A stretch of DNA of 64,000 nucleotides from the NCBI RefSeq assembly GCF_002775205.1, contig NC_036447.1:27836245-27900244 (forward strand), written 5' to 3'. The position numbers and the translations under genes were made by a program. Shown piece by piece: positions 1 through 51,090 of the stretch. The first letter of the stretch is position 1. The number at the start of each line of letters is the position of its first letter. The stretch comes from Xiphophorus maculatus (Eukaryota > Chordata > Actinopteri > Cyprinodontiformes > Poeciliidae). The notes under the pieces are model-generated. The model had not been told where the DNA came from. It did no database searches and saw only the letters and a list, made by a program, of their open reading frames with translations.

Positions 1-434
1 AAAGAACATTTTTATGACAGTTTTATGACCAGAACGCAAGTCCCATCACTTTTGTGTCTGGTTCAGATCTCTTCGTCTTTCCTTAGTGTATTGCTCGGAT
101 CCTTTGATTTTTATTAGTAATGATATGAAATCTTCATATCATTCTCTATAAACATTTTGGTAAAACTCTTGAATAACAGTTTTGTACTGTGATATTTGTA
201 GGTAATTTAAAAATGAGTGTGAATTGTAGTGTAAATATGCTTTTGAATGAGAGGAGGGTTGTTTGTCGGAACAGCTCCAAAAGAATTCTGTGATCAATAA
301 CAGGTAATCATCAACTAAAATTGCTAGACTATCATTTATCAGCATAAATCAATATGTCTATTCTCAGTGCTGGCATTTGCGACCTCCAGGGTCCTGAACA
401 ATATGACTTTTTCTATTTTCTCGTTTGTGTGAAG
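1..434 (+). other. man2b1 intron (5' end of gene lies outside window)
   Basis: No coding exon is recognisable here. The stretch is AT-rich and ends in a pyrimidine-rich tract with a plausible AG acceptor at 433-434, directly before the first visible man2b1 exon. The roughly 100 N-terminal residues expected for this enzyme family, including the signal peptide and the first active-site His/Asp pair, must lie upstream of the window. Confidence 0.7.
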
Positions 435-3400
435 ATCGTAACGACATCCAACACGCCGGCGTTCAGTACATCCTGGACTCGGTGGTGGATCAGCTGCTGA
501 AGAACCCAGACAGACGGTTCATCTACGTGGAGACAGGCTTCTTCTACCGCTGGTGGAAGCAGCAGAGCTCCAGCATGCAGCAGACGGTCAAGCAGCTGGT
601 TAACCAAGGTGCGCCGCCCGGTGCCGTGTGTTCGCGTCAACGGCGAACACACGGCCGTGTTCGCACAGCTCAGGATGAGCTTGGGTCAGGAAGCTCATCC
701 TTACCCAACTCTTGCTCCTCCAGGTCGGCTGGAGTTTGTAAATGGCGGCTGGTGTATGAGCGACGAGGCCACGACGCACTACAGCGCCGTCATCGACCAG
801 ATGACCATCGGCCTGAGGTTTCTGAACGAGACCTTTGGGATCTGCGGTCGCCCCCGGGTCGCCTGGCACATTGACCCCTTTGGCCACGCCCGCGAACACG
901 CCTCTCTCTTTGCACAGGTAGCTGAAGCTTAGCAGGACTGTTACAAAATGAAGCTTTAGTCAATATTTGGTGAATAATTGCCTTTAATATTAATCACACT
1001 CCTTGCTGCCATGGTTTGACCTGAAAGTTACTTTCCTGGAACGAAGATATTTTCTTAGTTGAACAAAGATTCTCTTTGGGGGCTTAGATGTTACAGAGAC
1101 AATATGGCAGTTATTTAAACTTTATCCGTAAGTTAACTTGGTAACAGCTAAGTTACAAATTTTAGTCGATACTCTTTTGAAACTTAGCCATTGCAGTTTT
1201 AGCTGTTACTCTTTCGTGAAACTTACCAAAACTTTCCTGTGAAACGACAGTCGCTTTCGCAGAACCTACATGGAACTTTCTTGTTATATTTGTGGAAAAC
1301 GTACTAAGCTTACATTTGGTTTGTTTATGTCCAAAACCTTGTTAATGCAGGGTTACATTTAGAGCTTTTATTAAGGATTAAAGGGGCTAAGAAGATGCTA
1401 GACAGTATGTATTAATTTGTAGAGTAATAAAGATGGAGGGTAGGACAAAATAAACCCGTAACAAAGAAAAATAAAGCAAGACTTCCAGTTTCAGTTGATT
1501 AATTCACGTTGCGTAACAAACTGGAGTTATTGTTTCATCCTCTTATTTAAAGGCTATTTTTTTATTAAAGCACATTCTCGACATTATGTCAAATTACTGG
1601 GATGTAAATAAACTGGTCAGGGTTTTCTACAATAAGCTGAGCTGGCAGACGAGACGGGTTCTGTTAAGTCCAGTTGACCACCATGTTCAGGTTACTGACT
1701 CTGGTCAGACCTCCATCCTGGAGTAAGTTGGAGGTTATTCTCCACCTTTTATGTTGCACACTCCTGGGTGCTTTATTTTTTTCTTTTCTTTACACTCTTT
1801 ACCTTCACCGGTGAGCCGGGGTTTGGTTTTAGTTTACGTTTATTTGTTTATTTATTTTTTGGAGAAACGCCTCACTGATCAGGTGGGGACGGTGTCGCTC
1901 ACTTTAAGATCCAAACGTGGTGCAGGTAAAAAACAGCTTTTATTGTGAGATTCAGTCGAAGCACCGATTCATTTGTCCTCCAGATGGGATACGACGGCTT
2001 CTTCTTCGGTCGCCTGGACTACCAGGACCGGACTCGCAGGATGAAGGCGAAGGAGCAGGAGCTCCTCTGGAGAGCCTCAGACAGCCTCCCACCACCCATG
2101 GCCGACCTCTTCACCGGTAAAAAAAAAACAAAAACAAAACCAGAACTCCTCCGCCATGCTTCATGACCTGAGACTGCTGCTGCAGCAGAGTGTTTTTTTT
2201 TTTTACTGCGTTCAGGAATCCTTCCCAACGGGTACAACCCTCCAGAAGGGTTCTGCTGGGACCAGCTGTGCGCCGACGCACCAATCAGAGACGACCCCGA
2301 CCTTGAGGATTATAACGTTGACGATGTTGTCCAGCGCTTCCTTCGCGCCGCCAAGAGTCAGGTCTGTTGAGACGGGTTTCTCCTCAATGGTTGAATTTTA
2401 CAGCTGCATAAAAAAATGTAATCCATTTTTGCTTTATCTGTTAAGCAGGCACTAAGCTAAGTTTTATCTAAATACAGTACATTTGAGGTAAAGGCTTCTT
2501 GTTTTGAAGACATGAATACATAAACCTCTGGCATATCCTTTGTCTTTCTGAGAGGTGTGGGAAAAGAAAGAAAGAAATGGGAGTTTATGGAGAAAAAGAA
2601 AGGAACAGGAGTCGGTAGAAATCTGCTTCTACACCTGCAGAAAGAGAAAAAATATATAAAACCAGAGAAATCACTGTTTCTAAATAAACTATTTTTAGCA
2701 TCAGAACCATAAAAAGTGCTCATAAAGTTTTGGAAAAACTTACAGACAATGTGGTTATTTTTATGTTGAAATTTTAGAACTAAAGTCTTTATACTTTTAT
2801 TTTTCTACTTTTGTAGAAAACATCAACTCTTTCAAAAAGGAGAACAACCTGATTTTCTTTATATACAAACAAGCAAGTTTTTTTTTTTTCCAGCTTAATG
2901 ACAAAACCCATTCTTGTGTTCATGAAAGCGTTCAGTACCATTCTGTATGAAACGTTTCCCAGTTCTATATTATTTGCCAAAATTACTATGCTCATACTTA
3001 CGATGAAAAACGGTAACGGACACCTTTCCAGCAAAAAGAGCTAAACCTTCAACTGTTAAAAAAATTAATAAATAAAAAAATTATGACTGTTTTAGATTTA
3101 TAACTATTTAATATTGCAGACAGAATTGCTGTATTTTCTCCACTTTTGTTCCTGTTGTTTGCGTGAATCATTCATTTTTCTGTTTTCTTTTCCCCTCTAA
3201 GGCGTTAGTGTACAAGACCAACCACATCATTATGACCATGGGCTCAGACTTCCAGTACGAGAACGCCAACCTGTGGTACAAGAACCTGGACAAGCTGATC
3301 CGCTACGTCAACGACCAGCAGGGCAACGGCAGCAACGTCAACGTCCTCTATTCCACTCCATCCTGCTACCTGCAGGAGCTTCACAAAGCTAACCTCACCT

Positions 3401-6400
3401 GGTGCAGCCGACGTCTGGAGCTCAAAACGTGACGCCTGACATCAGTTCATGTAAACGATTATATCAACCGCATTTCTCTTTATCAAGGCCTCTGAAGACG
3501 GACGATTTCTTTCCCTACGCGGACAACGCTCATAACTTCTGGACGGGATACTTCACAAGCCGACCGGCGCTGAAACGCTACGAGAGGATCAGCAACAGCA
3601 ACCTGCAGGTAACTACAGTTCACTTACTTTTCTGGTTTTAATCGCTTTTTCAGATTTATAGTTGGATGTATTTTTCTTTATTGCCCTATTTATTTATTTA
3701 TTTTTCAAATTTGACAGACTTGTAATCAGCTGGAGGTTCTGGGCGGTCCAGTTTCCAGGAATGGGCTGTTTGGACAGGGTGACAGCAAGACTTTGAGTGA
3801 GTTTGTTTTTTGTTTTTTTTTTTGTCCAGTTGATTGGTGGAAGGTTCTTGCGTTCAAACCTTTTTAATGAATATCTCTTTATTGGTGGCTCTACAGGCTT
3901 TCCAGAACTACACTGTACTGTCAAAACAATGAGAAGTGGTGGAAAGTTGCGCAAATTTCTAAAAGCTGCTTGTATTCTATTTGCTGAAGAAACAATAAAA
4001 ACATTCCTCACAGGGCCCGATTTATAATCACGTGGGCCCCTGGGCCGGAGCTGGCTTTGGTGCCCTCTCCACTAAAGAAAAATTCTTCTAGTAATTCAAA
4101 TTACAATACGTATTAATAGGTCGATCTATACATGAGTGGGTGTGAACTGAAGCATGGTATTAGATAGTATCTATCTACTTATCTAATATATCTATCTATG
4201 AAAAATCAAAAAATATTCATTCATTAATGCATTCATTAATAAATAAATCATAATAATAATAAAAAAATTTGTGGTAGCCCCCAAAGAATTGCCGCTCTGG
4301 GCTACTGCCTCTGTCGAATGTCCTAACAGCAGGAAATGCATTTCTCTTAGATTCGGTCTGTCACAATAACAAATTTTACTGGATGATAAATTGTCTCAGA
4401 AGTTATTGCGATAAACGATAATATCCTTGTTTTGAGTCCATTTCCAAATAATATAAAGTTCATGGCATAATAATGGTTTATTAATCTCAAAGATCAATAA
4501 ACTTTTAATCTCTAACAATCATTTAACACTGGAACGGCGAGACGTTTTAAATATCCAAAATAAGTAAACAAAACAACAGAAACGACAAATAAAATGAGTG
4601 ATGAAGGTGTGTAAACAGAATTGTCCTTCAAAAGAAGGAGCAGGTTGAGGCCAAAACACCAGGCTGAATGAAGACTTTTGTCATCCAGCTTTTGGTAGAA
4701 AGAGAGAAAATCATGCAAATGGAAATGATTGAACTTCTTTTAATTTATCATACGATTAGTTGATTTATTGATTATTGTGAGTGGCTTATGACAAGTTCTT
4801 CCATCACTTTTTGCACCTGATGGTCTATATGTAGTTTTTGACAGAGTTGTGGTTGTTTTTTTGTTTTTTTTATTATTTTACCATCATTAATAAACAGGAT
4901 GATTGGTGTGCATTAGAGAATATAGTGCTTTGACATAAAACTATCCACAACCTTCTATCTGCACCTTCTATTGGTGTTGGTGCATCTAGAGATGGTAAAA
5001 TACATCGAGTATTAGCTGTATACATATTTATTTCTTTTGCATTTCTACATGAATTTTGATGAAGTTTATGCCCTGGTCTGCAGGGAAAGCAATGGCTGTG
5101 GCTCAGCACCATGACGCAGTGTCAGGAACAGAGAAACAACATGTTGCCAACGACTACGCCAAGATGCTAGCCAAAGGCTGGCAACACTGCCAGGTACATG
5201 AGACGATGATCATATTTCGTTTAAACGTTCTCTCTTATCATTTTATGCTGAATAAAACATGCGTTCGTCATGTCTTTGTTTTGTTTTTTTGTTTTTTTTT
5301 CACTAACTGTCCTCGTCCAGGTTTTGGTCAGCAACAGTTTGGCTTCCCTCACTGGCTCCTCTGCTGAAAGAATCTACTGTGATAACCTCAACGTCAGTGT
5401 GTGTCCTCTAACCGAGTCCAGCAGCAAGGTGAACACACACACACACACACACTCAAAATATGATTCATTGTAAACCTGGATCTAGTAATAACCATGTCTT
5501 ATCCCTAATAATTGTTCTTAAAAACCCCGGTCTGCACTATCATCTTCTAATATAAGATTTTAACAGTGTGAAGCTGCATTGATTCTGTTATTAGAAGCTC
5601 AGTGTGTTTGTGTCTCGCCGCTCTGGTCCAGTTCTCGCTCAGTGTGTACAACCCTCTGGGTCGGTCCGTCACCTGGCCCATCAGGCTGCCGGTCAACGGG
5701 ACGGTGTACGCCGTCACTGACGCTCAAGGAAAACCCGTGGACTGTCAGGTTAGTCAATCTGTTGCTCCCAAACCCTTAGTTAAAGGAAACCTCCAAGTGT
5801 GCCACCCTATGACTTCTTCTTTGTGTTTTTATTTTTGTTTTGAAGGTGCTTCCTGTGTCCAGAGCCACACAGGAAGTGAGGAGGAGCCGCAGCTTCGCCA
5901 AGAACGAGCTGGTGTTCCAGGTCCGAGCTCCTCCTCTGGGTTACATCAGCTACTCTGTGTCCCTGCTGCAGGACGGGCCGCCATCGTCCTCGCCTCAACA
6001 CCAGGCTCCCACCAGCATCCAAAACAAGGTACATGTTCAGAAAGATGAGTCGGAGTCCGCCACGCTTAGAAATGAGCGTGATAAAATCAAAACTGACTAG
6101 TGACTGTTTCTTATATGATGTGCTTCAGTTTCTTCAAGTGACCTTTGACCCTGACACTGGCCTTTTGTCCGGTCTCAGCAACCTGGAAACCAAACAGACC
6201 ATAAAGCTTTCACAAAACTTCTACTGGTTGGTGTTTCTTCCAAAACAAAAACAAAATGTGTTTAAATTCAGGTTTTTGCCTAAAGTTTTCAAATGATAAT
6301 TGATAAAAAAAAACAACACGTGTGTTTGGGCGTTTTAGGTACAATGCCAGTGACGGCAACAACGACGAGAGTCGGCAGACCTCTGGAGCCTACATCTTCA

Positions 6401-9400
6401 GACCCAACTCCTCCACACCTGTCATGGTCAGCAGTAAGGCCAGAGTGGAGGTCTTTCAGGTAGCACTGCGTTGACTTTTAACCTCATGTTTATGTATTTA
6501 AACTCACAGGCTTCTAACTTTGACACTATGATTGATTTCAAGGTGTCCGTGGATCCATGTATCTAAAACGAAGGTCTTAAAATGTCTTGAATTCACAAAC
6601 AAAATGTAAACTCGCCTTAAATATGGTAACCACAGGTCTTAAATTTAGTCATATTTTATGTGTTATTATTATTATTTATTTATTTATTTTGCTCATTGGA
6701 GTTTTCTTTTAGGTAAAAACTTCAGAAGCTGCTAATAAGACCTTACCTGCCAGTTAGCTAGTAAGCTAGCTTAGGCTTAAAAATACAAACTGTTTTTCAT
6801 ACCAGATATGATTCTAATTTTTTTTTTGTTCTGTTTTTTGTTGGGGTTTTTTACGCAAGAGAATTACAAATGACCAAAAATATTTTCATAAAATGTCCTT
6901 TATTCCTATTAACTGTGAGTTGAATAACAGAATATACAGTTTCTTCCTCAACAGTTTTCCATGTTTTTGTTTCTTTATTTTGTACATTTTTACAGATTTT
7001 ATATTTCATTCATAATAGTCTTTAAAAGTCATTAAATTTGAGTTGGTGAAACCTGCAGAAACGCAGCATAAAGAAATGTGAAACTGCACATAGTAACTAC
7101 ATTTAGTCATATTTTCAAATGTATTTATCTGGAGAAATAATTACTGTTGCTGAACAAAGAGTGTAGAAAAAATGGTAAAGCTAAAAATCCTGACATCCTG
7201 AATCTTGGACACTTTAAGTTATAAAATAGATCCTTAAAGAAAAAGTTTTCTATTAATTCTGTAACGTCGTGTGAACAGAACTCGGTGGTGCAGGAGGTGC
7301 GGCAGCGGTTCGCTCCCTGGGTGTCTCAGGTGGTCCGACTCTACGCCGACAGCAAAGCCGTGGAGCTGGAGTGGACGGTCGGACCGGTGCCGGTCAAGTG
7401 AGTGCCAAATATTTATGAGTTGGGAAAATAATCTGCACCTGTAGTATGTGAATGTTTTCACAGACCACCTTGTTTTTAATGTGGTCTGTGAATGTTTGAT
7501 TTTATGTTTAAATCTGTTTATTGGCTAGTGATGACCAGGGGAAGGAAGTGATCACTCGTCTGGACACCAGCATTAAAACCGCAGAGTTTTTCTACACCGA
7601 CTCAAACGGCAGAGAAGTTCTCCAGAGAAAGTAAGAAAATGTCTTTTAGATATCATATCGTCTAAAAAAAAATAAATAGAAAACGTTAGATGAGTATTTT
7701 GGATTTGTTTCCAACAGGAAAGACTTCCGTCCCACATGGCAGCTCAAGCAAACGGAACCCATTGCTGGGAATTATTACCCCATCAACTCTCGCGCCTTTA
7801 TAAAGGTCTTAACTACTCTTTTCTTTTGCTAATCACTTTCTTCATCTTTTTCTTTTATTTCCTGCAATTCTACAAACATTTTACTGTATGTTTGTATTCA
7901 GGATGGCACGGACCAACTCACAGTAGTGACAGATCGCTCTCAGGGAGGAGCGAGTATATACAACGGATCTCTGGAGATCATGGTACAACATATTTACACT
8001 TTATATCTGTTTAAAACAAGCAGTAAGCACCAATACTGACTTTCATGGGTCCAAACATGAAAGGACCCATGATGTAAATGTAAAATTTACAGGAAGTAAA
8101 TGTAAAATGTACAGGGGGCTAACTACAACACATTGTATTAAATTACATATTTTCTGTGGTAATTGTCCATTTTTTTTTCTTTATCTTCAACTAATAACAG
8201 CAGTTGAGGGCCTAAAGTATGACAGTCATATAGTTATTAGCTAGATCAGAAAATTAGCCTGACTGCCTCGCTTTGGAAGCCATCTGAAGCATTCAGCATG
8301 CGGATGTGAGAAAATCTTCAATGGTGCAGACTGAGCATTTGCACAGTGTAGCATGAGAGTATGTTGGGTTGTCATTTTAATTGTTGATTGCATAAAAATT
8401 GTTTAAAAAAATGAGCAGAACTGACTGAGTTGTGTGTTTTTATGTTTTAACTTCCATTATTCGGAATCGTGTTCCTTATCCTCCCGGCTTTGTTTGGCTA
8501 ACAGTAATGCTACATGTTTAATGAGACCACTAACGTTCCTCTGCAGCTTCACCGCCGGCTGCTGCATGACGACTACCGCGGCGTCGGTGAAGCCCTCGAT
8601 GAGAGTTCGGAGCTCTTCCCCGACGGCCTGGTGGTCCGCGGTCGCCTCCTCCTCTCCCTGGAGCCGCCTGCCACCGCCGCAGACACACACCGCCCCCTGG
8701 CACAGGAAGTGGTATCACAACCCCTGCTGTCGTTCACCAATGGAGACCTGAACCCGAACGCACGACTGGAGGTTTGGGTTAACACACCACACCTCTGACA
8801 GATTAATAACAACTAAGAAATGAGGTTTTAGAATTGAAGAAAATTGGCTTTTTTCTTTTTCAGTTTTCAGGCCTTCAAGCATCGCTGCCCCCTGCTGTCC
8901 ACCTCCTGACACTGAGTCAGTGGGACGAGGAGTCCGTCCTGCTCAGGCTGGAGCATCAGTTCCAGAGCTGGGAGAGCAAAGCCAGCTCCCAACCCGTCAC
9001 AGTCAACCTTCAGGTCGGACATTCAGAACTCATGACATTCCTTAGAAAGAGAAATATTTCACCAATTCTCTTTCTAACAACTTTTAAGTTTAAAAATAGT
9101 GAATTAAATGTACTTGAACATCATGCCTTTTAAACGATTTTCTGTCTTTTTTTTGTGTGTGTGCAGAAGCTGTTTTCCACTCTGAATGTTCTGGGTGTTT
9201 CTGAGCTGAACCTTTCAGCCAATCAGTGGAAAGATGAGATGAAGCGTTTTGATTGGTCTCCTGAAAAAGGTACAGGTCATTCTAACAGGTGTCAAATACA
9301 CTGGGGGTTAGTGCGCGACATTTCAAGTTTACAGTATGGAAGGTGAAGAGTGGCAAATTATAGTGAATAAATACTAATTTATGAAATAATGAAATCTGTC

Positions 9401-10820
9401 ATTCATTTATTAGAAAATACCAAATAAATAAATACCAAAATTATTGTATGATTAAATATAGAATAATCATACATTCCTCACTGAAGTGTATTGATTTTTG
9501 TGTGGAAAAATTCAATATAATTATTTTATGTTCCTTTGCTGAAGCATTTGTTATGACTCTGAGGTTAATATTTCACTGGAAGTGTGAAAGCAACTTGAAT
9601 ATATTGATTTAATAAACTCTTAGAGTGGCTCCAGACTCTATTTTGTCTGAAATATCTCTAAGTGGTTCTGTGTAGAGGAAGCTGCCACAGACTTCAGACA
9701 GCAATACATTAGAGCCAGAGTTACTCACTCAGATTGTATGAAATAAATTACAGCAGCTTAATTGTTCTTCAAGTTATTTCTGCACTTTCTAGCAGAGACG
9801 TTGACCTCAGAGGTAAATTTGATGTGCCGTTTGAAGCAGCCAATCAGACGTCTTTGCAAGCTGCTCTAGTCCCGCCCACTTGGTTCAATGTACTTGTTTG
9901 CAAAGTGCTTCAGCACAATAAAATGATCTATTAAATCATTATTTAAAAAAAATCAAATCAATACATTTAACTGAGGACCATAATTAAATGTAATATGCTT
10001 AATAAATCATTTGTGTAATTATTTCAAGGTTTAGTAAATGACTGGCACTTCAATATTTCATAAACCAAAAAGGATTATTCAAATAATATTATATCAATAA
10101 AAATTGGACTAAGTTGCAGTTCATATTTTCCAAGTTTTATACTTGGAAAATATAAAGCTAATTATTACATGTAATTAGTTGCTGATTACATGTAGCAGTA
10201 AAATCTATCTTTTTGGGATAATAATGATAATAATGTGTTTTAGTTTCTACTCAGACATTTATCTGGAGATTAGCTGATGGTTCCTACTCAGCCAAATGTT
10301 TGGGGGTTTGCAATGTCTGGCAGCGGTCACTGCCCGGTCACTGGATGGTCACTGTCTGGTCACTGCTGACTTGTTGTGCAGCTCAGAGCAAACTGAGCAG
10401 AGGATGAACAGGAAGTGTCTGTCACATTGTAACTCTGCAGCAGCGGTGGCGGTAATCGCTGCCTCATTACAATCAGAACAACGCCCCCAGGCTCTAATTA
10501 AACTAGAATATAATGAGCCATAAATTTGTCTTAGTGTTTCACAGCAGGGTGGTTTAATAAAGACTCGTTTTATTTATGTGGCGTTCTCGGCTTGGGGACG
10601 GACTGTTTTACTACAGGCTGCTTTGTTTGATGCTAACAAGGTGTAAAGTAGGCTTTATTACACCTCTTACATATTTTTAGTTACACGCTCTAATAATTAA
10701 CATTTTGTCTTGACAGAAGAGAAACCCCTGCTGAAGACGTTTGAGGATCCGTCTGTGTGGGAAATCACCCTGAGGCCCATGGAGATCAGAACATTTTTAC
10801 TCAGGGTCACATTTCAATAA
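435..10820 (+). CDS. man2b1: Lysosomal alpha-mannosidase (GH38), 5'-partial, 21 exons
   Basis: A glycosyl hydrolase family 38 enzyme that removes alpha-linked mannose from N-glycans in the lysosome. Exons placed at 435-608, 724-917, 1984-2116, 2216-2361, 3202-3401, 3488-3608, 3718-3796, 5084-5193, 5321-5428, 5632-5748, 5846-6028, 6129-6226, 6339-6459, 7279-7397, 7529-7630, 7718-7805, 7902-7982, 8547-8771, 8864-9013, 9167-9269 and 10717-10820. All junctions have GT-AG borders and consistent phase, giving 917 codons before a TAA at 10818. Visible hallmarks: [15 protein letters not shown] at the start, AWHIDPFGH with the catalytic nucleophile Asp (exon 2), [13 protein letters not shown], and HHDAVSGT with the zinc-ligand His (exon 8, start of the mannosidase middle domain). 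The C-terminal beta-sandwich segments include TDRSQGG, and the end [12 protein letters not shown] is typical of MAN2B1 rather than the Golgi enzymes. Length fits the roughly 1000-residue family once the missing N-terminus is added. No frameshift or lost active-site residue was seen. Confidence 0.96.
918..1983 (+). other. man2b1 intron 2 of the visible set
   Basis: About 1.07 kb between two confident exons. I see no coding signal, RNA gene or clear repeat. It is AT-rich with ordinary homopolymer runs. Confidence 0.6.
4356..4785. mobile_element. MITE-like interspersed repeat in a man2b1 intron
   Basis: About 430 bp bounded by imperfect inverted ends (GTCTGTCACAATAA on the left, TTATTGTGAGTGGC on the right). 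It contains the phrase GATGATAAATTGTC followed by AT-rich sequence. The same unit recurs at about 25635-26060 and, internally deleted, at 42836-42930, which shows it is a dispersed family. No coding capacity. The ends look hAT-like but the superfamily is inferred; I could not define a convincing target duplication. Confidence 0.6.
6460..7278 (+). other. man2b1 intron, AT-rich
   Basis: About 0.8 kb separating the [10 protein letters not shown] exon from the [11 protein letters not shown] exon. Low-complexity A/T runs only; no gene, RNA or clear mobile element recognised. Confidence 0.55.
8036..8546 (+). other. man2b1 intron
   Basis: About 0.5 kb between the exon ending LEIM and the exon starting [12 protein letters not shown]. 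Contains a short internal repeat of CATGGGTCC and its complement near 8045-8075. Nothing else identifiable. Confidence 0.5.
9270..10716 (+). other. Last and largest visible man2b1 intron
   Basis: About 1.45 kb of AT-rich DNA before the terminal exon. There is a short stretch of GGTCACTG repeats near 10325-10365. No coding exon fits the conserved protein here, and I see no RNA gene. Confidence 0.55.
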
Positions 10821-11082: not shown

Positions 11083-12584
11083 GTTTTTAAAAAAAGTTAG
11101 AATGTCGAATAATTGCAGTCATTTTAAAAGTTAGAGCCGTCAGTCAGGTTGAATGACGAGCTTTAGGTTTGGACCTGAAGGTTTGTTTGACTGTAACATA
11201 CAGCAGGAGCCACACAACATGAATAAAACCTGAAACAATTTATTATAACTGAAACTGCTGCTGAACAGCCCCAACACTTCCTATCATATCCCAAAAGATC
11301 AGCAATATTTTATACGATTCCCACTGCTGAAAGCTTTTTCCGTTTGCATTCACTTAGTATTACCAAATTGTCTTCATAGTACTTTTTTAAATCCACCCAT
11401 GATATTCCTCAGTATTATGCTGTTCCTGTTACCGCCCCCTTGTGGTAGCAACAAAACATTGCAACTAGACTATTAAGAATAAAATGAACCTTTTAAGAAA
11501 TTTGAATCTTTCCAACTTGGAGCAGTGACTGTATTTCTGCTGTAAAGCGCTTTAATCCTCTGATTTGTCTTCACTGAATTATGCTGCGCTATGAACAGAC
11601 TGTTTAAAACCCACTTTTTTGATTTTTTTTGGCAAATATTTAAATGGGTCCTTTGTTCATCTAAATCAGCTGCAGTTTAAGCTGCAGATATGAGAGTTCA
11701 GAGGGCAAAACATTGTGATTGTCTGTAGGTTCCATCTGTGGCTCAAAAACTAAATTCATTAATGGTTTGGACTAAAACTGGAGCTGTGATGAGGAATATT
11801 TTGGGTAAAAGGACAATCTATACATGGATTCAAGCAAAAATCTATTTTTTTAAATGGCTTATTCTTGAGGTATATAAAGAATAATGAATAAGGTAGTTTT
11901 TTTTCAGGAATTATCCATAACTGGATAAAAATCTTAATTTTGTCTCCACTGTGAAATTTCTGAACCATCTGTGCATTTATAAACAATTTGAAGATGTAGA
12001 TACAGGATTATTTCCATGTCTGTAGAAACAATTGACTGTTTTTGTTACCAACTGGTGCCAAAATATACTGACCAACATGTGCAATATTTTGTTTTACTCA
12101 TGTATGTACATACATGTTTTTACAGCTGAACAAGCATCTTATAATAAAATTCTGGTCATTTACATCCGTTGTCATTCTTGCTCCAAAAGTCAAGGTTTTC
12201 TAGAAAATTTCAGATTTTTTAAATCAAATCTCTGACTTTTCAAATAATAGTAATTTCCAAGTTTGTTTTTTTTTATTGCTTCAAGTCAAAAACTTTTGAC
12301 ATGTTAAGTAGATCGCTACAATTGTAATTGAGTCAACTGCATTTACCTTAAAACTTCACAAATTGGAATTACGAAAATGACCATTTTGAAGACACGTTTT
12401 CTGATGTTTGTGAAACTGTATTTTTTTCGACATCGGAATACCGACACAGTTTGTGCACATTTGTAGTGTGTGCATCTTGTCAAACATTTTCAACTCCAAA
12501 GCTTTCTATTCAAATTGTTGACTTTATAGCCAAATTCTGTGCATGTTCACCCACAGCAGCAACAAGAGCTTTCAAAAAACTCCA

Positions 12585-12590
12585 ACTTTA
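12585..12590 (-). terminator. Candidate polyadenylation signal for gpr108 copy A
   Basis: TTTATT on the plus strand reads AATAAA on the minus strand, about 1.4 kb past the copy A stop codon. Another candidate lies at about 11241. Which one is used cannot be decided from sequence alone. Confidence 0.3.
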
Positions 12591-13058
12591 TTGTGGCAAT
12601 TCTTACATTTATTAACCTTCTGTGACAATTAAAAAAAAATCTCTTCATCTGACTCCTGTAAATCTGTATGGACTGTTTACCTGTGGACTCCCGGTGGAGA
12701 CGGGCTGCCTGTGTGGCAACACTGCAGATCAAGGAGTGAACCAGGAGTGACTGTGGTTAAATCTCAGTCTCACTTTTCTTGTGATTGGGGTTCATTTCAA
12801 GGAATAAAAGAAAAGATTCAAAAATCTCACTGAATCATCCTGAAACACTGTGCAGTTCATAAAGTGTAATCTGTCTCTTCTTTTATGAACAGTCATATTT
12901 ACAAATCACCTGTTACTGAATGATCTTCTACCCTGTCCGGCTGCTGAAGTCAACTGGAATTAATCAAAAACTTCACATCAAGAGCAAAAAATGGTTAAAA
13001 ACCAAAAGTAGGTAAAGTGGACTCAGCTGTGCCAAAAATAACCGAAAAATATGTATGC

Positions 13059-13089
<31 letters not shown>

Positions 13090-13654
13090 TCTGGCCACAG
13101 CTCTGGTCACTTTAGAGCCTGGTGCCTGATCTGAAAGTACTGTCACTTTAATTAAAGGTCCTCAAGTCAGTATGGTGGAATAAGCAGGTTATCTTCAACC
13201 ACTAAAGCACTAAATTACAGCAGCACTCCAAAATGACACACTGGGAGGAAACGCCTCGTCCTCCGACACACACAATGATACTGGAAAACATTTCAATATG
13301 CAAAAGACAGCAACATACTGAATCCAAACAAATTAAATAAAATAAAATAAAATAAAACATCCTGCTGTTGATTATTCCAACCTAAAAATCAATGAGCAAA
13401 ACATGTACGGTGCAGTGGTGGGAAACGAAGCTGTTTCCTCCATAACATCAATTTTTCTTTTTTTTTGTCTTTTCACCTGAGAATGGGCTATTGCATCCAA
13501 ATGAGGGAAACCTAGATTTGTGTCACATTACGTTTGTTCCATGTTACACAAAAAAAAAGAAGAAGAAGAAAAAAAAAGATGTTACCTGCAGGATGCAGGA
13601 GTACCGTTTTTACATAGCCGGCATAAACACACCCAAGTCTTTGTCTATAATAAT

Positions 13655-13655
13655 G

Positions 13656-13692
<37 letters not shown>
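13655..13692. repeat. (TAA)n microsatellite, copy A
   Basis: Run of ATA/TAA triplets. In copy B the matching position (31918 onward) has far fewer triplets and is interrupted by the pogo-like element at 31294-31917, which used a TA within this tract as its target. Confidence 0.85.
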
Positions 13693-13695
<3 letters not shown>

Positions 13696-14004
13696 CAAGC
13701 TTTGGAGAAAAACAGAGAAGAAGAAAAAAGAATTTCAGAGCTGTGTTCCATTTTCCCACCCGTCCAGAAAAAAATAAACCCTCCTGGAGCTCTTCAGGTT
13801 TTGGGTGGAGCACCCCCAAAAGAAAATGGACAACCTCCGTCATGTTAGCCATCTTTTTTGTTGTTGTTTTTTTACGTTTTGCATAGCCAGACAGTGGGCA
13901 TGAAGCTTTGCAACCACTTGAAGAGTTTTGAACAGAGAGCCGTCAGCAGAAGTGGTGGTGGGGGGTCTTGGTCCATATGAGCCCCCACCCACTCAGCCTC
14001 CTGC

Positions 14005-27866
<13,862 letters not shown>

Positions 27867-28461
27867 CACAACACCTGCTAACGTTGACTGTTAGCTGTCG
27901 ACAATTCTGCCAGATGGCTAAACAACAAGCTTGCTAGCAGTCCTTCCGGTCTCGAGTCGTTACAATGAAATGTATCTTCAAAAACGACGCTCAGCCGCAC
28001 AAATGACCCACTTCGTTGTTAAATAACAACACCGTCTTTTATGCTTTCCAATGTATAAGTTCTTTCATTGCGTGAACTACCAGCCAGCTTGTCGTAGACG
28101 TTGGGAAGCTGCCACTTCCTGGTTTGCGATATCACGGAGGGTTCGGACGGAGCCGTCACAACCTGAAGAACAACAAATGATTTGTTCTACAGCTGGAATA
28201 AATATATCCCGCAGGCCAGTGAGGGGGAAACATGATTTATGGCGACTCTTCAGTCAAAAATGTTATTAACAGTGTCAAAAGTTTCTATTGACACGATTTG
28301 TCTATACCTTGTATTCGTTGTGCTACATTACGTCACGTGGTTTAACTAGGACGTGGACGTGAAGGGAACCACCCCTTCATACATAAGCTTATATATGTAT
28401 GAATGGTATCAGATCTGTGAGACTAGTAAAAAAATTATTAAATATTAATTATTAAGTTTCC
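27867..28461. promoter_or_regulatory. 5' flank and likely promoter of gpr108 copy A
   Basis: About 0.6 kb upstream of the copy A start codon, duplicated almost unchanged upstream of copy B (46358-46900). It is less AT-rich than the introns, shows no TATA box in a convincing place, and contains GTCACGTGG (an E-box core CACGTG) at about 28333. A 72-codon plus-strand frame at 28051-28269 is kept in both copies because the DNA is nearly identical, which is not evidence that it is translated. The last about 30 bases are AT-rich spacer at the duplication junction. Confidence 0.5.
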
Positions 28462-29895
28462 AGGCAGAAGGTTTGATTGGCTGTAACATACAGCAGGAGC
28501 CACACAACATGAATAAAACCTGAAACAATTTATTATAACTGAAACTGCTGCTGAACAGCCCCAACACTTCCTATCATATCCCAAAAGATCAGCAATATTT
28601 TATACGATTCCCACTGCTGAAAGCTTTTTCCGTTTGCATTCACTTAGTATTACCAAATTGTCTTCACAGTACTTTTTTAAATCCACCCATGATATTCCTC
28701 AGTATTATGCTGTTCCTGTTACCGCCCCCTTGTGGTAGCAACAAAACATTGCAACTAGACTATTAAGAATAAAATGAACCTTTTAAGAAATTTGAATCTT
28801 TCCAACTTGGAGCAGTGACTGTATTTCTGCTGTAAAGCGCTTTAATCCTCTGATTTGTCTTCACTGAATTATGCTGCGCTATGAACAGACTGTTTAAAAC
28901 CCACTTTTTTGATTTTTTTTTGGCAAATATTTAAATGGGTCCTTTGTTCATCTAAATCAGCTGCAGTTTAAGCTGCAGATATGAGAGTTCAGAGGGCAAA
29001 ACATTGTGATTGTCTGTAGGTTCCATCTGTGGCTCAAAAACTAAATTCATTAATGGTTTGGACTAAAACTGGAGCTGTGATGAGGAATATTTTGGGTAAA
29101 AGGACAATCTATACATGGATTCAAGCAAAAATCTATTTTTTTAAATGACTTATTCTTGAGGTATATAAAGAATAATGAATAAGGTAGATTTTTTTCAGGA
29201 ATTATCCATAACTGGATAAAAATCTTAATTTTGTCTCCACTGTGAAATTTCTGAACCATCTGCACATTTATAAACAATTTGAAGATGTAGATACAGGATT
29301 ATTTCCATGTCTGTAGAAACAACTGACTGTTTTTGTTACCAACTGGTGCCAAAATATACTGACCAACATGTGCAATATTTTGTTTTACTCATGTATGTAC
29401 ATACATGTTTTTACAGCTGAACAAGCATCTTATAATAAAATTCTGGTCATTTACATCCGTTGTCATTCTTGCTTCAAAAGTCAAGGTTTTCTAGAAAATT
29501 TCAGATTTTTTAAATCAAATAAAAAAAATTCCCAGTTTTTTTTCTTCTAAAAAATAGTTTTAAGGCAATTTTTTTGACATGAAACTGAGACCATTTCCAA
29601 AAGTTGAAACACTGGAAGTTTCCTAGGTATCCAAAATTTAAAATGTTCAACTTTTGAGAAACTAAGATCTTTCAGAAAAAAGTCTGACTAAAATATTAAG
29701 TTTCAGAAGACAAAAACTTGCTAAAATCTTTTTCTGAAAAACAAAATTGTTTCAGAAAAAGAAATTAAGCAAATTTAAACTTCTCAAGCTTCAATTGCTT
29801 TTTTGAGAAGTCAAAAATTTGAAGAAACTAAAATTTTGACACCTTACCCGCTTTTTAAGTTTTGAGAAATTCAGAAACTTTTTAGATGATTGTAT

Positions 29896-29918
29896 GGGGG
29901 GGGGGGGGGGGGGGGGGG
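29896..29918. repeat. Poly-G homopolymer (23 nt)
   Basis: Uninterrupted run of G, found only in unit B. Homopolymers of this length are prone to length error in sequencing, so the exact count is uncertain. Confidence 0.9.
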
Positions 29919-30803
29919 AGAAAGGAAGGAAATGAGGGTAACATAGATCACTACAATCTTAATTGAGTCAACTGCATTTCCATTTACCTTAAAACTTCAC
30001 AAATTGGAATTACAAAAATGACCATTTTGAAGACACGTTTTCTGATGTTTGTGAAACTATTTTTTTCGACATCATCAGAATACCGACACAGTTTGTGCAC
30101 ATTTGTAGTGTGTGCATCTTGTCAAACATTTTCAACTCCAAAGCTTTCTATTCAAATTGTTGACTTTATAGCCAAATTCTGTGCATGTTCACCTACAGCA
30201 GCAACCAGAGAGCTTTCAAAAAACTCCAACTTTATTGTGGCAATTCTTACATCTATTAACCTTCTGTAACAATTAAAAAAAAATAAAATAAAAAATCTCT
30301 TTATCCGACTCCTGTAAATCTGCACAGACTGTTTACCTGTGGACTCCCGGCAGGTGGAGACGGGCTGCCTGTGTGGCAACACTGCAGATCAAGGAGTGAA
30401 CCAGGAGTGACTGTGGTTAAATCTGATTTTGTACCCTGTCCAGAGCAAAAAATGGTTAAAAACCAAAAGTAAGTAAAGTGGACTCAGTAGTTAGTAGTTT
30501 ATATATATATAAAATTTATATATACAGTATATATGTATATACTGTATATATCCTGTATATCCCTGATCTGTATATATAGCCTGATCTGAAAGTACTGTCA
30601 CTTTAATTAAAGGTCCTCAAGTCAGTATGGTGGAATAAGCAGGTTATCTTCAACCACTAAAGCACTAAATTACAGCAGCACTCCAAAATGACACACTGGG
30701 AGGAAACGCCTCGTCCTCCGACACACACAATGATACTGGAAAACATTTCAATATGCAAAAGACAGCAACATACTGAATCCAAACAAATTAAATAAAATAA
30801 AAT

Positions 30804-31016
30804 TAACCTAACCCCCTGCGCCACCACAGCACGCTTCTTTTAAAATTTTATTTTATTTGTTTGGTTTGGAGGCCTTGGTCCTCAACGCGGATGTCGCGGG
30901 TTCGACTCCCGGTCCCGGCGACCTTTGCCGCATGTCCTCCCCCCTCTCCTGTCTGCTTACTGTCATAAAAAATACAAGCCACTAGCGCTGCAAAAACTCT
31001 TCGGAGAAAAAAAAAA
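30804..31016. mobile_element. Rearranged tRNA-derived SINE, copy B only
   Basis: The first part (about 30808-30833) is the tRNA-like head in reverse orientation (CCCCCTGCGCCACCACAGC). The rest (about 30870-31016) is in forward orientation: GGAGGCCTTGGTCCTC, box-B-like GGGTTCGACTCCCGGTCC, the body and a poly-A tail. The 5' head is therefore inverted relative to the body. Unit A has an uninterrupted AAATA-rich tract at the matching site (about 13335). Confidence 0.8.
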
Positions 31017-31293
31017 CATCCTGCTGTTGATTATTCCAACCTAAAAATCAATGAGCAAAACATGTACGGTGCAGTGGTGGGAAACGAAGCTGTTTCCTCC
31101 ATAACATCAATTTTTCTTTTTTTTTGTCTTTTCACCTGAGAATGGGCTATTGCATCCAAATGAGGGAAACCTAGATTTGTGTCACATTACGTTTGTTCCA
31201 TGTTACACAAAAAAAATGGGAAAAAAAAGATGCGACCTGCAGAAGTACCGTTTTTACATAGCCGGCATAAACACACCGGAGTCTTTGTCTATA

Positions 31294-31917
31294 CAGTGAA
31301 CCCTCGCTGTAACACGGTTGACCTTTCACGGCCTCGCTGCTTTGCAGAGTTTTTTGTGCAGTTTTTTTTTCCACAGTGCATTGTGTTCTGCGTCCTGATT
31401 GGATAAACAGTCTCCGCACTTCTTCTCTATATACTGTAATGTGCCAACAACGTTACGGTATTTAAATATACGTAATACAGCTTGGCAAATTTTGGCAAAT
31501 ATTTTTGCCCAGAAGAAAAAAAGAGCAACAACAACTACTGATAACTATGTTCTTCTCTTGAAACAACACACCTGCACCACACAGGCTTCAGAAGAAAAAG
31601 ACACCAGAGAGTGGAGTCAGGCGGCAGCGTCACAGTCACAGGCACAGTGAAATACACGAGTCACAATTTGTCCTACTGTACTTCGTTTTAATGATTAAAA
31701 TGATTATTTTACTGTAGTTATTTGTAAGAAAACATTCTATTTGTTTTAAAAAAAAATGCTTAGGCCTGAAAACAGTTTTTGTTCTTTGGTTTCAATGTAG
31801 AGTATTTAATTATGCTGCATATAACAATTGTAAAAAATAAAGGTAACTACTTCACGGATTTCGCCTATCACGGGATCCTTTTGGAACGCAACCCCCGTGA
31901 AAAATGAGGGTTCACTG
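31294..31917. mobile_element. pogo/Tigger-like DNA element, copy B only
   Basis: A 624-bp insertion whose ends are CAGTGAACCCTCG and its near complement GAGGGTTCACTG, flanked by TA at 31292-31293 and 31918-31919. It sits inside the TAA tract that is uninterrupted in copy A. The interior carries no intact transposase. The CAGTGAACCCTC terminus and TA duplication are characteristic of Tc1/mariner-pogo elements; the assignment to Tigger is by recall of the terminus. Confidence 0.88.
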
Positions 31918-32246
31918 TAATAATAATAATAATAACAAGCTTTGGAGAGAAACAGAGTAGAAAAAAAAAGAATTTCAGAGCTGTGTTCCATTTTCCCACC
32001 CATCCAGAAAAAAACTTTCTTTTGGAGCACCCCCAAAAGAAAATGGACAACCTCCGTCATGTTAGCCATCTTTTTTGTTGTTGTAATTTTATGTTTTGCA
32101 TAGCCAGACAGTGGGCATGAAGCTTTGCAACCACTTGAAGAGTTTTGAACAGAGAGCCGTCAGCAGAAGTGGTGGTGGGGGGTCTTGGTCCATATGAGCC
32201 CCCACCCCGACCCCGGCTGGTCCCCCCCACCCACTCAGCCTCCTGC

Positions 32247-46357
<14,111 letters not shown>

Positions 46358-46900
46358 CACAACACCTGCTAACGTTGACTGTTAGCTGTCGACAATTCTG
46401 CCAGATGGCTAAACAACAAGCTTGCTAGCAGTCCTTCCGGTCTCGAGTCGTTACAATGAAATGTATCTTCAAAAACGACGCTCAGCCGCACAAATGACCC
46501 ACTTCGTTGTTAAATAACAACACCGTCTTTTATGCTTTCCAATGTATAAGTTCTTTCATTGCGTGAACTACCAGCCAGCTTGTCGTAGACGTTGGGAAGC
46601 TGCCACTTCCTGGTTTGCGATATCACGGAGGGTTCGGACGGAGCCGTCACAACCTGAAGAACAACAAATGATTTGTTCTACAGCTGGAATAAATATATCC
46701 CGCAGGCCAGTGAGGGGGAAACATGATTTATGGCGACTCTTCAGTCAAAAATGTTATTAACAGTGTCAAAAGTTTCTATTGACACGATTTGTCTATACCT
46801 TGTATTCGTTGTGCTACATTACGTCACGTGGTTTAACTAGGACGTGGACGTGAAGGGAACCACCCCTCCACGTCGTATAAGATCTGAGACTAGTAAATAA
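46358..46900. promoter_or_regulatory. 5' flank and likely promoter of gpr108 copy B
   Basis: Nearly identical to 27867-28435 upstream of copy A, including the GTCACGTGG E-box at about 46824. Because the flank was duplicated intact, both copies probably began with the same regulation. It ends at the right junction of the duplication, after which (AAAT)n and unique sequence begin. Confidence 0.5.
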
Positions 46901-48463
46901 ATAAATAAATAAATGAGGAGAAAAACGAGTTTAAACAACTCCAAAAAGGTCAAAGTGATGTCAATAAAGTTGGATAACCTCACTAAAAATTCTGTTACTT
47001 GTAGAGACCCTTCATCAAAAGGACCCCGCCAACAAAACTGCTGTGAAACGTTTGTGCTCCACTTGTCCTGGTTTGTACAGCAACATTGTTGTGTTTTTAA
47101 TAAATATTTCCAGAGGTTTCGAAAGTTCAACCAGCCCCCCTCCACTTCTTCAAATCAATCAGAATCGGTGCCAGTCAACATAATGGCTAAATGTGTGCTG
47201 CAAAAATGTTTGCTTGTGCTACTTTTGCTTTGAAGATATTGGTGGAAGTTTGAATGTCAACAGGTCAACGCCTCTCCCATTACCCAAATCAAACGAAATT
47301 GGTGTCAAACATTTGTGCAACAAAAAGGAAACAAAACAAACAAAAAATCTTTGTTTTGGCCTTTAATCTTATGTGGAATCACACACATGCAGCAATACAA
47401 ACATGCAAAGATAATGAGAGAAATAAGTAACAAAATGTCTATAGGTAAGATATACAGTTGATGGAGTATGTCAGCTACTTCATATGCCATCTTTTAAAAA
47501 AAACATACCGGGATTGACAAAAGACAAAAAGAAACGACACATGCATAAATTAAAACGCAAAATAAATGAGACTGACAAAATGTTAATGCCTCTTTGTTGT
47601 CTTTTTGGGTTGCCAGCTGCATAGTAGCAACAACGATGCTGCAGTTGCAAATTTAAAACGCTTAATGTTTGTGATATGATCATTATTGCAATGAACATAT
47701 CACAAAGTTGTGAAAGAGAGGCAAGTATTCTGGAATGTAAATTTCTCAAACATTTGCTACTCTGAAGTCAACTGGTAATACAACATAAACCAGACAAGAG
47801 TGAAAAATTATAATTGTTCTTCAACACGACACACACACAAAAAAATCCCCTCCTAGATAAGACATCAGTTTTTCTTTCCACTGAAGCTCCGTTAAGTCAG
47901 CATAAAATAAATCCTGCATAAGTGCCATAACCTTTGGTTTGATCATACCTTTCTGTTTCATCGGAAGACACCCAAACATTTTGAAACATTTATTGTACAT
48001 ACCTCAGACTTTATTATTTGGGAATGCCAATAAACATGTATTATAACTAACAATGTGATATCTGCAGCCTAAGAGGAGCATCCGCAGACGGTGCGACCTC
48101 TGACACGGACAGACATGATGGCTGAAATACCTCTGAAGTAAAATTTTTTTAAAAATCACACACTTGATTTATTTGCAAATAGACAGATTTACTAAAACAA
48201 GGTTAAAGCAGATCCCTCTGAAAAAGAGTTGAAATGATGAGATACAATAGAACAGGAGCTGAACCAGCGTAATAAAAGGTAAACTGGTTCAGGATGCTTT
48301 GTGAGCCTCCGTTCATTTCGTCTACTTGGATTATTTGTATACAATGACAAATGATCATGCCTCTGAAAATGAAACTAAAATTGCAAGGGAAAAAAAAAGA
48401 CAGCACAATAAAGCCATTGTAAAACAGCACTAAAAACGGGCTGCGTTTCACGTGGAGCTTTCA
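46901..48463. other. Intergenic / 3' UTR of the pyrin-domain gene
   Basis: AT-rich sequence beginning with an (AAAT)n run. No coding exon recognised on either strand. Minus-strand polyadenylation-type hexamers (TTTATT on plus) occur, for example near 48010, and would suit the pyrin-domain gene upstream. Confidence 0.45.
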
Positions 48464-49060
48464 TTAGTTTTTGCTAAGAGTTATGTTCCATGTGCCGGAT
48501 TCACTATTGCTGATGATTGGAGCCAAGATCACACTTCCCTCCTGAGCTACCAATGAGGGACCAGCGGCTGCAGCAGCAGCAGGCGCCGCGGCTGCAGCAG
48601 CAGCAGCTGGGGCGGTCACAGGTGAGGCTTCAGGCGCGGTTCCAGAAGAGGAAGTGGTGGAGGACACAGCATTCAATTTTTCTGCACTTAAAGAAATTTT
48701 AAAAACAGCTGATTAGCGCACAGACATGGCAGAGGGTGAAAGTGTCGCCTAAAGAGGAGTCAAGTGATGGCATAATCACCTGGATGTGCGTTGGACAGCT
48801 TCTGCGCCAGGTCGTTCCGTTGTTGTTTCTTCAGGATGGTCACAGCAACCGTCACAGCAACGTCTTCTGTATAGTTCTCTATCATCTTACTCACTGTTTT
48901 AGTCCGCTCTGCCTGCTCTAGGTAAGACGTAGGAATCGACCTGTGACCTTCCAGCTCGTGCTGCTGCAGGTACCACTTAAAGGTCTGGAATTCGTCCCTG
49001 TTCAACTGTTCCAGGGAGTCCAGGAGCAGCTCTGTGACCCTCATGTCTATGGTGGTGGCC
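48464..49060 (-). CDS. Pyrin-domain (PYD) protein with Ala-rich tail
   Basis: Pyrin domains are six-helix death-fold modules used for homotypic assembly of inflammasomes. Coding exons are 49044-48780 (start MRVTELLLDSLEQL) and 48681-48464, 160 residues in all, joined in phase by GT-AG. A splice acceptor just before 49060 leaves 16 bases of 5' UTR (ending CACCACCATAGAC) before the chosen ATG. Residues 1-88 read as a PYD (LDSLEQLNRDEFQTFKWYL, then IPTSYLEQAERTKTVSKMIE and TILKKQQRNDLAQKLSNA). The second exon has Ser/Thr, then a run of Ala (CAG-rich on plus), then APIISNSESGTWNITLSK. That last motif resembles tails of some fish PYD/NLR proteins, which is recall-based inference. No NACHT, CARD or LRR exon was seen nearby, so it may be a PYD-only adaptor or decoy. 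An upstream non-coding exon is expected but not located. Confidence 0.82.
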
Positions 49061-49894
49061 CTGAAGCGCAAACCACATGCGCAAATGTAAAAACACATTG
49101 ACAGACATGGCAGACTACAAGAGAAGAAAATGCTTCAAGACGCATCAGCATGTTAGAGTGAACTTCGTGTATTCCCGTCTTTTGAAACGGCTGCTTGCGA
49201 GTCCGAAATGGGCCTCGTTTATGTCATTGAAGCAGCTTTTGCTGGACAATAATAACTGAAACAAATGTTAATTGCGACGGCTAATAATATGTCTGAACTG
49301 CTGAAGAGGCCTGAAAACTAATATCCCCCGTTTTCTGTTCAGTGAGCCGACATGGCATGAGCGCAAAATATTTCCTTTACGAAAGTGGAAGCGGGTACGA
49401 TGTGATCCTGCTGGGTACGAGACGGAGCGAATGACAAAGGATTAGCGACACACGAACCACATCTGCATCGAAATAGTCTGCAGTTTACTTCATCTGACAT
49501 ATTTTCGTGACTTTTTGCGCATACGAGCCTGTGTGAGAAACGTCTTAAAGATGCAACTAAAGATGTAAATAAACTACTTTTCTTTTCACGTGAAAGTCGT
49601 TATCTTTACATGGGCACGAGAGCAGAGTGAAATAGAAATAAGAGGTAAAACTAGACTAGTTTTTTTTTGTTCAAGAGGCCCGATGATAATGAAAAACGCC
49701 TCAAAAAAAAAGGGGGGGGGGGGGGGGGGAAATCTGGTCGTTTTTACGTACCTCTACGTCAGCACCGCGGGAAGGAGAGCACGCGCGCAGCCACAGGCAG
49801 CTTCTTAAAGCAGAGTCTTAAAAATCCTGACAAAGTTTCCCCGTCTGCCTTCAGCAGAACTTGTTGCTCCAAAGGACAGGCTCGTGGCTCTTCA
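49061..49894. other. Upstream region of the pyrin-domain gene
   Basis: About 0.8 kb likely holding its promoter and first non-coding exon. It includes a poly-G run at 49712-49729 directly after a run of A. No further coding sequence seen. Confidence 0.4.

Positions 49895-50909: not shown

Positions 50910-51090
<181 letters not shown>

Follow-up and report, generated by a model that had tools for sequence, protein, structure and literature searches.

Two complete gpr108-like genes lie in tandem in the window (the whole 64,000-nt stretch of DNA analyzed here), and we consider it probable that they are a real, young tandem duplication in which one copy is under relaxed constraint. Self-BLAST of the whole window gave 37 matches (E up to 1e-10), with one long collinear direct set. 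Together with a global alignment, this delimited two units and the junction between them:

11177 to 28379, minus strand: unit 1, 17.2 kb, direct, with gpr108-like copy 1 inside
28467 to 46870, minus strand: unit 2, 18.4 kb, direct, with gpr108-like copy 2 inside
28380 to 28466, no strand assigned: junction free of N, made of a degenerate continuation of the right end, after which 17 bp of filler without a match lead up to unit 2

The left edges of the units are at 11177 and 28467 and the right edges at 28379 and 46870. The initial annotation had proposed that a complete gpr108-like gene was duplicated in tandem and had suggested a self-alignment of the window as a check; its coordinates were right, and the collinear match set, the global alignment, and gene models built exon by exon all bear the proposal out. 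The two units were 93.3% identical over all 13227 gap-free columns of the global alignment, some of which are misaligned, and 97.8% identical (259 differences in 11905 columns) after columns in 61-bp windows with <85% identity were removed.

The gene was located with GPR107 and GPR108 probes, and models were then built from splice sites:

14005 to 27866, minus strand: gpr108-like copy 1, ATG at 27866, 18 exons, 559 amino acids, Pfam GOST_TM at 4.9e-53
32247 to 46357, minus strand: gpr108-like copy 2, ATG at 46357, 18 exons, 551 amino acids, Pfam GOST_TM at 2e-54

Rebuilt exon by exon, both copies have 17 introns, AG/GT at all internal boundaries, equal phases, and a single open frame, which agrees with the earlier description of two open copies of 18 exons each with splice sites and phase kept. 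Pfam PF06814 (GOST_TM) covers model positions 1-246 of 246 in both. For the lumenal GOLD domain of the GOST/LUSTR family, the sole match was CAND6-7_N at 3e-4 over residues 28-100, under the curated cut-off (21.4 versus 27.4 bits), and residues 1-19, where a signal peptide would lie, are strongly hydrophobic (Kyte-Doolittle, 2.37). Residues 1-281 had no match in NCBIfam, and an Rfam scan of the window gave 0 matches. Exon by exon, the genes matched the GPR107 as well as the GPR108 probes, and phmmer matched residues 251-541 to the TMEM87A structures 8hsi (1.8e-4) and 8ctj (1.9e-4). That one of the genes is a processed retrocopy, or an unrelated paralogue (e.g., gpr107) standing beside gpr108, has next to no chance of being right: introns and flanks are common to the copies, the proteins are nearly identical, and nothing was found in favor of this origin. 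The 17 introns per copy, together with the shared introns and flanks, rule out a processed retrocopy.

Several other features were seen around the pair. ORFs on the plus strand at ∼400-9900 converge on gpr108; one of them (501-929) matches Pfam Glyco_hydro_38N at 4.6e-23, and by eye the group resembles a lysosomal alpha-mannosidase gene, MAN2B1-like. An ORF on the minus strand with a PYRIN domain (48763-49134; Pfam, 1.1e-23) adjoins gpr108 copy 2 on its 5′ side. A perfect ATAG array of 44.8 copies (50910-51088) may hint at accurate long reads in the assembly. The 147-codon ORF at 55839-56279 on the plus strand had no Pfam match and may, by eye, be an Ig-type adhesion exon, and a self-complementary palindrome of ∼205 bp (61486-61690; 71.6%) is perhaps a MITE.

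The window contains no N, seam included (0 of 64000 bases). Within the junction, 28406-28449 resembles 46875-46914 (∼44 bp, degenerate and gapped), with a score of 54 against a maximum of 41 in 100 shuffles, and this degenerate match beyond the right edge finishes in an A-rich tract. Homology between the two 600-bp breakpoint regions was at chance level, the best local score of 24 (shuffle mean, 20.9) being reached in 33 of 300 shuffles and the best inverted score of 23 in 55 of 300. Duplication through recombination between breakpoint repeats is thus without support, and because no above-chance homology joins the breakpoints, repair or replication-based joining is the likelier route. Upstream of the start codons, the units share the following flanks:

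27867 to 28379, minus strand: flank upstream of copy 1 that both units share, 513 bp with 1 difference
46358 to 46870, minus strand: shared upstream flank of copy 2, the counterpart of the 513-bp flank of copy 1

The shared flank with exon 1 has a CpG observed/expected ratio of 1.02 and 0.88 in the two units versus 0.57 in the window, which fits a promoter. Matching 5′ flanks and a duplicated promoter had been described before. The match holds for the 513 bp above the ATG and then gives way to the ∼44-bp degenerate stretch, so that a core promoter at most, and nothing larger, can have been duplicated.

A different explanation, which we regard as unlikely, is that the assembler placed two alleles of one gpr108 locus in series. 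The units agree best at their two outer ends (99.8% identity for the 639 bp up to the right edge at 28379/46870, and 99.05% for 1054 bp at the other unit end), a pattern that also suits a graph bubble written twice. Intron identity of ∼97.5% with large insertions is possible between divergent haplotypes, and intron divergence of ∼2.5% is attainable in hybrids or in animals of very high heterozygosity. Mice without Gpr108 survive and are fertile (PMC6192633), so that a damaged allele could persist. The window, however, holds no further long repeat pair besides the two units among all 37 self-BLAST rows. The absence of N at the seam also counts against an artefact, but it is no proof of a real pair: according to PMC9516828, a false duplication is usually marked by a gap separating the two members, halved read depth, and discordant reads, although false pairs are sometimes joined gap-free by wrongly filled sequence.

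The copies also differ by large segments. Gap blocks of at least 40 bp number 18 in the global alignment, 9 of which are at least 200 bp (4 copy-1-only and 5 copy-2-only), and self-BLAST boundaries imply further segments hidden in the alignment (25673-26005, copy-1-only; 43052-43278, copy-2-only). The following were characterized:

39287 to 41812, plus strand: transposon inserted in copy 2 (intron 7), flanked by a target duplication of 8 bp (GTCTAAAT), with ends matching at 14 of 14 positions
44858 to 46236, minus strand: copy-2-only segment of 1.4 kb in intron 1, with an ORF matching Dimer_Tnp_hAT at 0.0012, below the curated cut-off
14487 to 16151, no strand assigned: copy-1-only segment of 1665 bp in intron 17, from the global alignment and the gene models
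21977 to 23028, no strand assigned: copy-1-only segment of 1052 bp in intron 9, containing a SINE-like repeat (22015-22232)

Copy 1 carries the empty site for the intron 7 transposon. In copy 2, the target duplication at 41813-41820 is found 20 bp beyond exon 7; judged by this duplication and by its termini, the element is probably hAT-like. It has a finger ORF (39509-39934) with zf-C2H2_12 and zf-BED matches below the curated cut-offs and, in a different frame, a 585-codon ORF (39684-41438) with no Pfam match. No clear terminal repeats were found for the segment at 44858-46236. A SINE-like repeat family has four members (19593-19766, 22015-22232, 30865-31013, and 43035-43273), and each of them sits in sequence missing from the other copy. 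These copy-specific insertions fit independent histories of the copies but do not settle duplication versus artefact, because haplotypes also differ in this way.

The initial annotation had treated the copies as equivalent, a view that did not survive the comparison: exons 8-18, which encode mostly the seven-helix half, are as divergent as the introns, and 8 residues are missing from copy 2. The exon 14 deletion, the nonsynonymous codons, the large copy-specific segments, and the split in divergence between exons 1-7 and 8-18 had all been absent from that annotation. Two exons of copy 2 are listed here:

34192 to 34211, minus strand: exon 14 of copy 2, 20 bp versus 44 bp in copy 1 (17610-17653)
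36383 to 36500, minus strand: exon 12 of copy 2, with 9 base differences in 118 bp and 6 amino-acid changes by local alignment

Exon 14 of copy 2 has a 24-bp in-frame deletion that removes QEASSTDG, residues that probably fall between helices 5 and 6. In exon 12 (20735-20852 in copy 1), 6 amino-acid changes stand against 1 silent codon change; this exon adjoins a GT repeat, and intron 12 of copy 1 holds a 183-bp tandem array (19882-20263). In total, 31 codons differ between the copies, 14 silently and 17 nonsynonymously, with all 17 of the latter in exons 8-18. Overall dN was 0.0146 by NG86 (LWL85, 0.0147; YN00, 0.0156), and dS was 0.0425 (LWL85, 0.0375; YN00, 0.0356). Divided by region, NG86 gave a dN of 0 and a dS of 0.0067 for exons 1-7 and a dN of 0.024 and a dS of 0.067 for exons 8-18, where dN/dS is 0.36. 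Bases differed at 1 of 657 positions in exons 1-7 versus 55 of 2228 in their introns (P = 1.4e-5). Exons 8-18 without exon 12 differed at 24 of 881 bases versus 136 of 5607 in their introns (P = 0.56), and with exon 12 at 33 of 996. Exon 12 was left out of the 881-base count and of the window-filtered identity, its region being poorly aligned globally and outside the collinear chain. Silent divergence in exons 8-18 (13 over ∼205 sites, the site number being estimated) exceeded intron divergence (P = 0.002); thus, exons may mutate faster and introns may understate the neutral rate.

Two alleles evolving at an omega of 0.1, a value assumed from the strong seven-helix similarity to the human proteins, would be expected to show 6.9 differences in exons 8-18, where 24 are seen (P = 3.4e-7, which would soften because the exon silent rate exceeds the intron rate). 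With 17 amino-acid changes, a loss of 8 residues, and intron-like exons 8-18, the copies are unlike two working alleles, and we take this divergence as evidence against an assembly artefact, yet it is also a sign of one less constrained copy.

Our preferred reading of a real duplication raises the question of which copy changed. Differences were tentatively polarized by eye against human GPR107 and GPR108; in pattern searches for relatives to serve as an outgroup, no stretch matched among viral contigs, and the 10 stretches that matched among genome contigs did not code for a relative. With these outgroups, 11 of the 17 amino-acid differences were assigned to copy 2 (residues 259, 363, 371, 374, 378, 381, 448, 468, 519, 522, and 528), as was the exon 14 deletion, and one (residue 368) was assigned to copy 1. 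The other 5 (243, 254, 273, 285, and 558) gave no clear direction, the first three leaning to copy 1. The excess on copy 2 has a binomial P of 0.006 as 11 versus 1 and of 0.12 as 11 versus 4, when the leaning sites are added. Copy 2 is probably the copy under relaxed constraint.

Copy 2 might go further and be a young pseudogene whose damage is not visible, a sub-case of a real duplication that we hold to be doubtful though not far-fetched. Its exons 8-18 diverge like introns, and most changes appear on its side when judged by the human outgroups. However, copy 2 has no stop, splice loss, or frameshift, its Pfam score is not lower, and exons 1-7 have 0 amino-acid changes versus a neutral expectation of 12.2, possibly in part through conversion. 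The full-length GOST_TM score is 185.2 for copy 2 and 180.7 for copy 1 (fragment, 187.9 versus 183.3). This independent measure runs counter to the polarization above, does nothing to favor decay of copy 2, and leaves the idea that it is straying from the family profile unsupported. When the 8 residues that copy 2 lacks were deleted from copy 1, the score rose by 2.0, and the substitutions add a further 2.6; the exon 12 changes alone cost 2.1 bits, S273P with A285V added 2.3, and M448K with Y468F added 2.4. It is important to note that GOST_TM is a weak judge of gpr108-specific constraint, because it covers distant relatives, one of them with a short loop: in the phmmer alignment, TMEM87A likewise has no counterpart of the 8 residues, so the loop that differs between the copies varies in the wider family.

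We also compared the changes in the pair with random expectation, taking the pair as one rather than copy 2 separately. If 33 substitutions fell at random in exons 8-18, they would be expected to give 22.8 nonsynonymous codons versus 17 observed (P = 0.024), and 1.2 stops versus 0 observed (P = 0.30). At the intron rate, 3.3 frameshifts would be expected versus 0 observed (P = 0.037). These results suggest that some selection, though weak, still acts on the pair as a whole.

A second sub-case of a real duplication, whose probability, like that of the pseudogene, overlaps with the whole, is that both copies are functional and selection drove the cytosolic side of copy 2 apart, leaving the copies subfunctionalized or with new roles. 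The changes at 374, 378, 448, 519, 522, 528, and 558 and the deletion lie in stretches that we place on the cytosolic side, so that copy 2 would have a short third loop, a changed second loop, and an altered C-tail. Exon 12 has its excess of amino-acid over silent changes, and frame and splice sites are kept. Altered cytosolic partners for copy 2 are possible on these sequence grounds, and in PMC6192633, mouse Gpr108 without its C-terminal domain loses NF-kB activation in transfected cells. Nevertheless, a dN/dS of 0.36 in exons 8-18 is not positive selection, and relaxed constraint gives an equal pattern. Further, the loop-3 motif swapped in that report (AVPFQ), with little change in the MyD88 assay, corresponds here to TMPFQ, which is alike in the copies and outside the deletion. 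We find this divergence in function rather improbable.

The lack of change in exons 1-7 calls for a separate account. The longest identical run between the units is 681 bp (27676-28357) over the promoter and exon 1, a length reached in 0 of 2000 permutations (99% point, 464), and introns 3-6 differ at only 3 of 454 positions versus 52 of 1774 in introns 1-2 (P = 0.003). Gene conversion in patches, at the promoter and exon 1 and at exons 3-7, is likely. Purifying selection could replace conversion for the 681-bp run, because the run spans the promoter and exon 1; the idea that selection alone keeps exons 1-7 is weakened by the low divergence of introns 3-6. Conversion across the whole 5′ half is unsupported, since introns 1-2 are as diverged as the rest.

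The same contrast between exon halves could be read functionally, with copy 2 as a split-constraint paralogue that makes a soluble lumenal-domain protein, a natural GPR108 decoy. On that proposal, the N-terminal lumenal half (exons 1-7) would be kept and the seven-helix half released, with the boundary at intron 7, where copy 2 alone has the hAT-like transposon just past the exon 7 donor, and intron retention or early polyadenylation in intron 7 would end copy 2 transcripts. Possible polyadenylation hexamers are present in intron 7 of copy 2 (41703, 41667, and 41046), but they are no evidence by themselves, because intron 7 of copy 1 has hexamers of this kind too (24312, 24097, and 23774), and so does the rest of intron 7 of copy 2. 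Conversion is the simpler cause of the kept exons 1-7 given how little introns 3-6 have diverged, and we consider the decoy very improbable.

Returning to a real duplication with one relaxed copy, we propose the following history. A tandem segmental duplication would have copied a whole gpr108-like gene with ∼0.5 kb upstream and 2.8 kb downstream, the breakpoints presumably being joined by a repair or replication-based route rather than by repeat recombination. From the ∼2.5% intron divergence, the split between the copies probably lies millions of years in the past. The ancestral role in Golgi trafficking and innate signaling may have stayed with one of them, copy 1 being the likelier, and the seven-helix half of copy 2 would be under relaxed, but not absent, selection, with some gene conversion at the promoter, exon 1, and exons 3-7.

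What is known of GPR108 gives such a pair its interest. GPR108, a GOST family protein of the Golgi for which trafficking roles have been suggested, is critical for most AAV serotypes (PMC9711517), is missing in birds and most other sauropsids (PMC11118497), and modulates Toll-like receptor signaling, co-precipitating with Toll-like receptors and lowering MyD88 in cultured cells (PMC6192633). If confirmed by sequencing reads, the pair would offer a recent experiment of nature on a conserved protein of the Golgi, and copy 2, without the loop segment and with an altered C-tail, could reveal which parts tolerate change. No fish gpr108 tandem pair was found in the titles and abstract openings of the literature searched.

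Compared with known systems, both copies resemble GPR108 (GOST/LUSTR family) in their hydrophobic N terminus, long N-terminal part, and seven-helix part matching the full GOST_TM model, and also in exon number, with 18 here versus 17 stated for mouse Gpr108 (PMC6192633). They differ in that there are two tandem copies here, copy 2 lacking 8 residues and having 17 further residues unlike copy 1. TMEM87A, related through the phmmer match, is a distant member of the same family and a different gene. The false heterotype duplications described in PMC9516828 share with our pair the adjoining near-identical genes and the highest identity at the edges, but here there is no gap at the seam and coding divergence is high for alleles. 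Ordinary young tandem duplicates of vertebrates share the direct repeat, the lack of breakpoint homology, the copy-specific transposons, the patchy near-identity, and the relaxed constraint on one copy. The duplication is an ordinary kind of genomic event, and its sole departure from such duplicates is that exons 1-7 have stayed unchanged whereas exons 8-18 have diverged.
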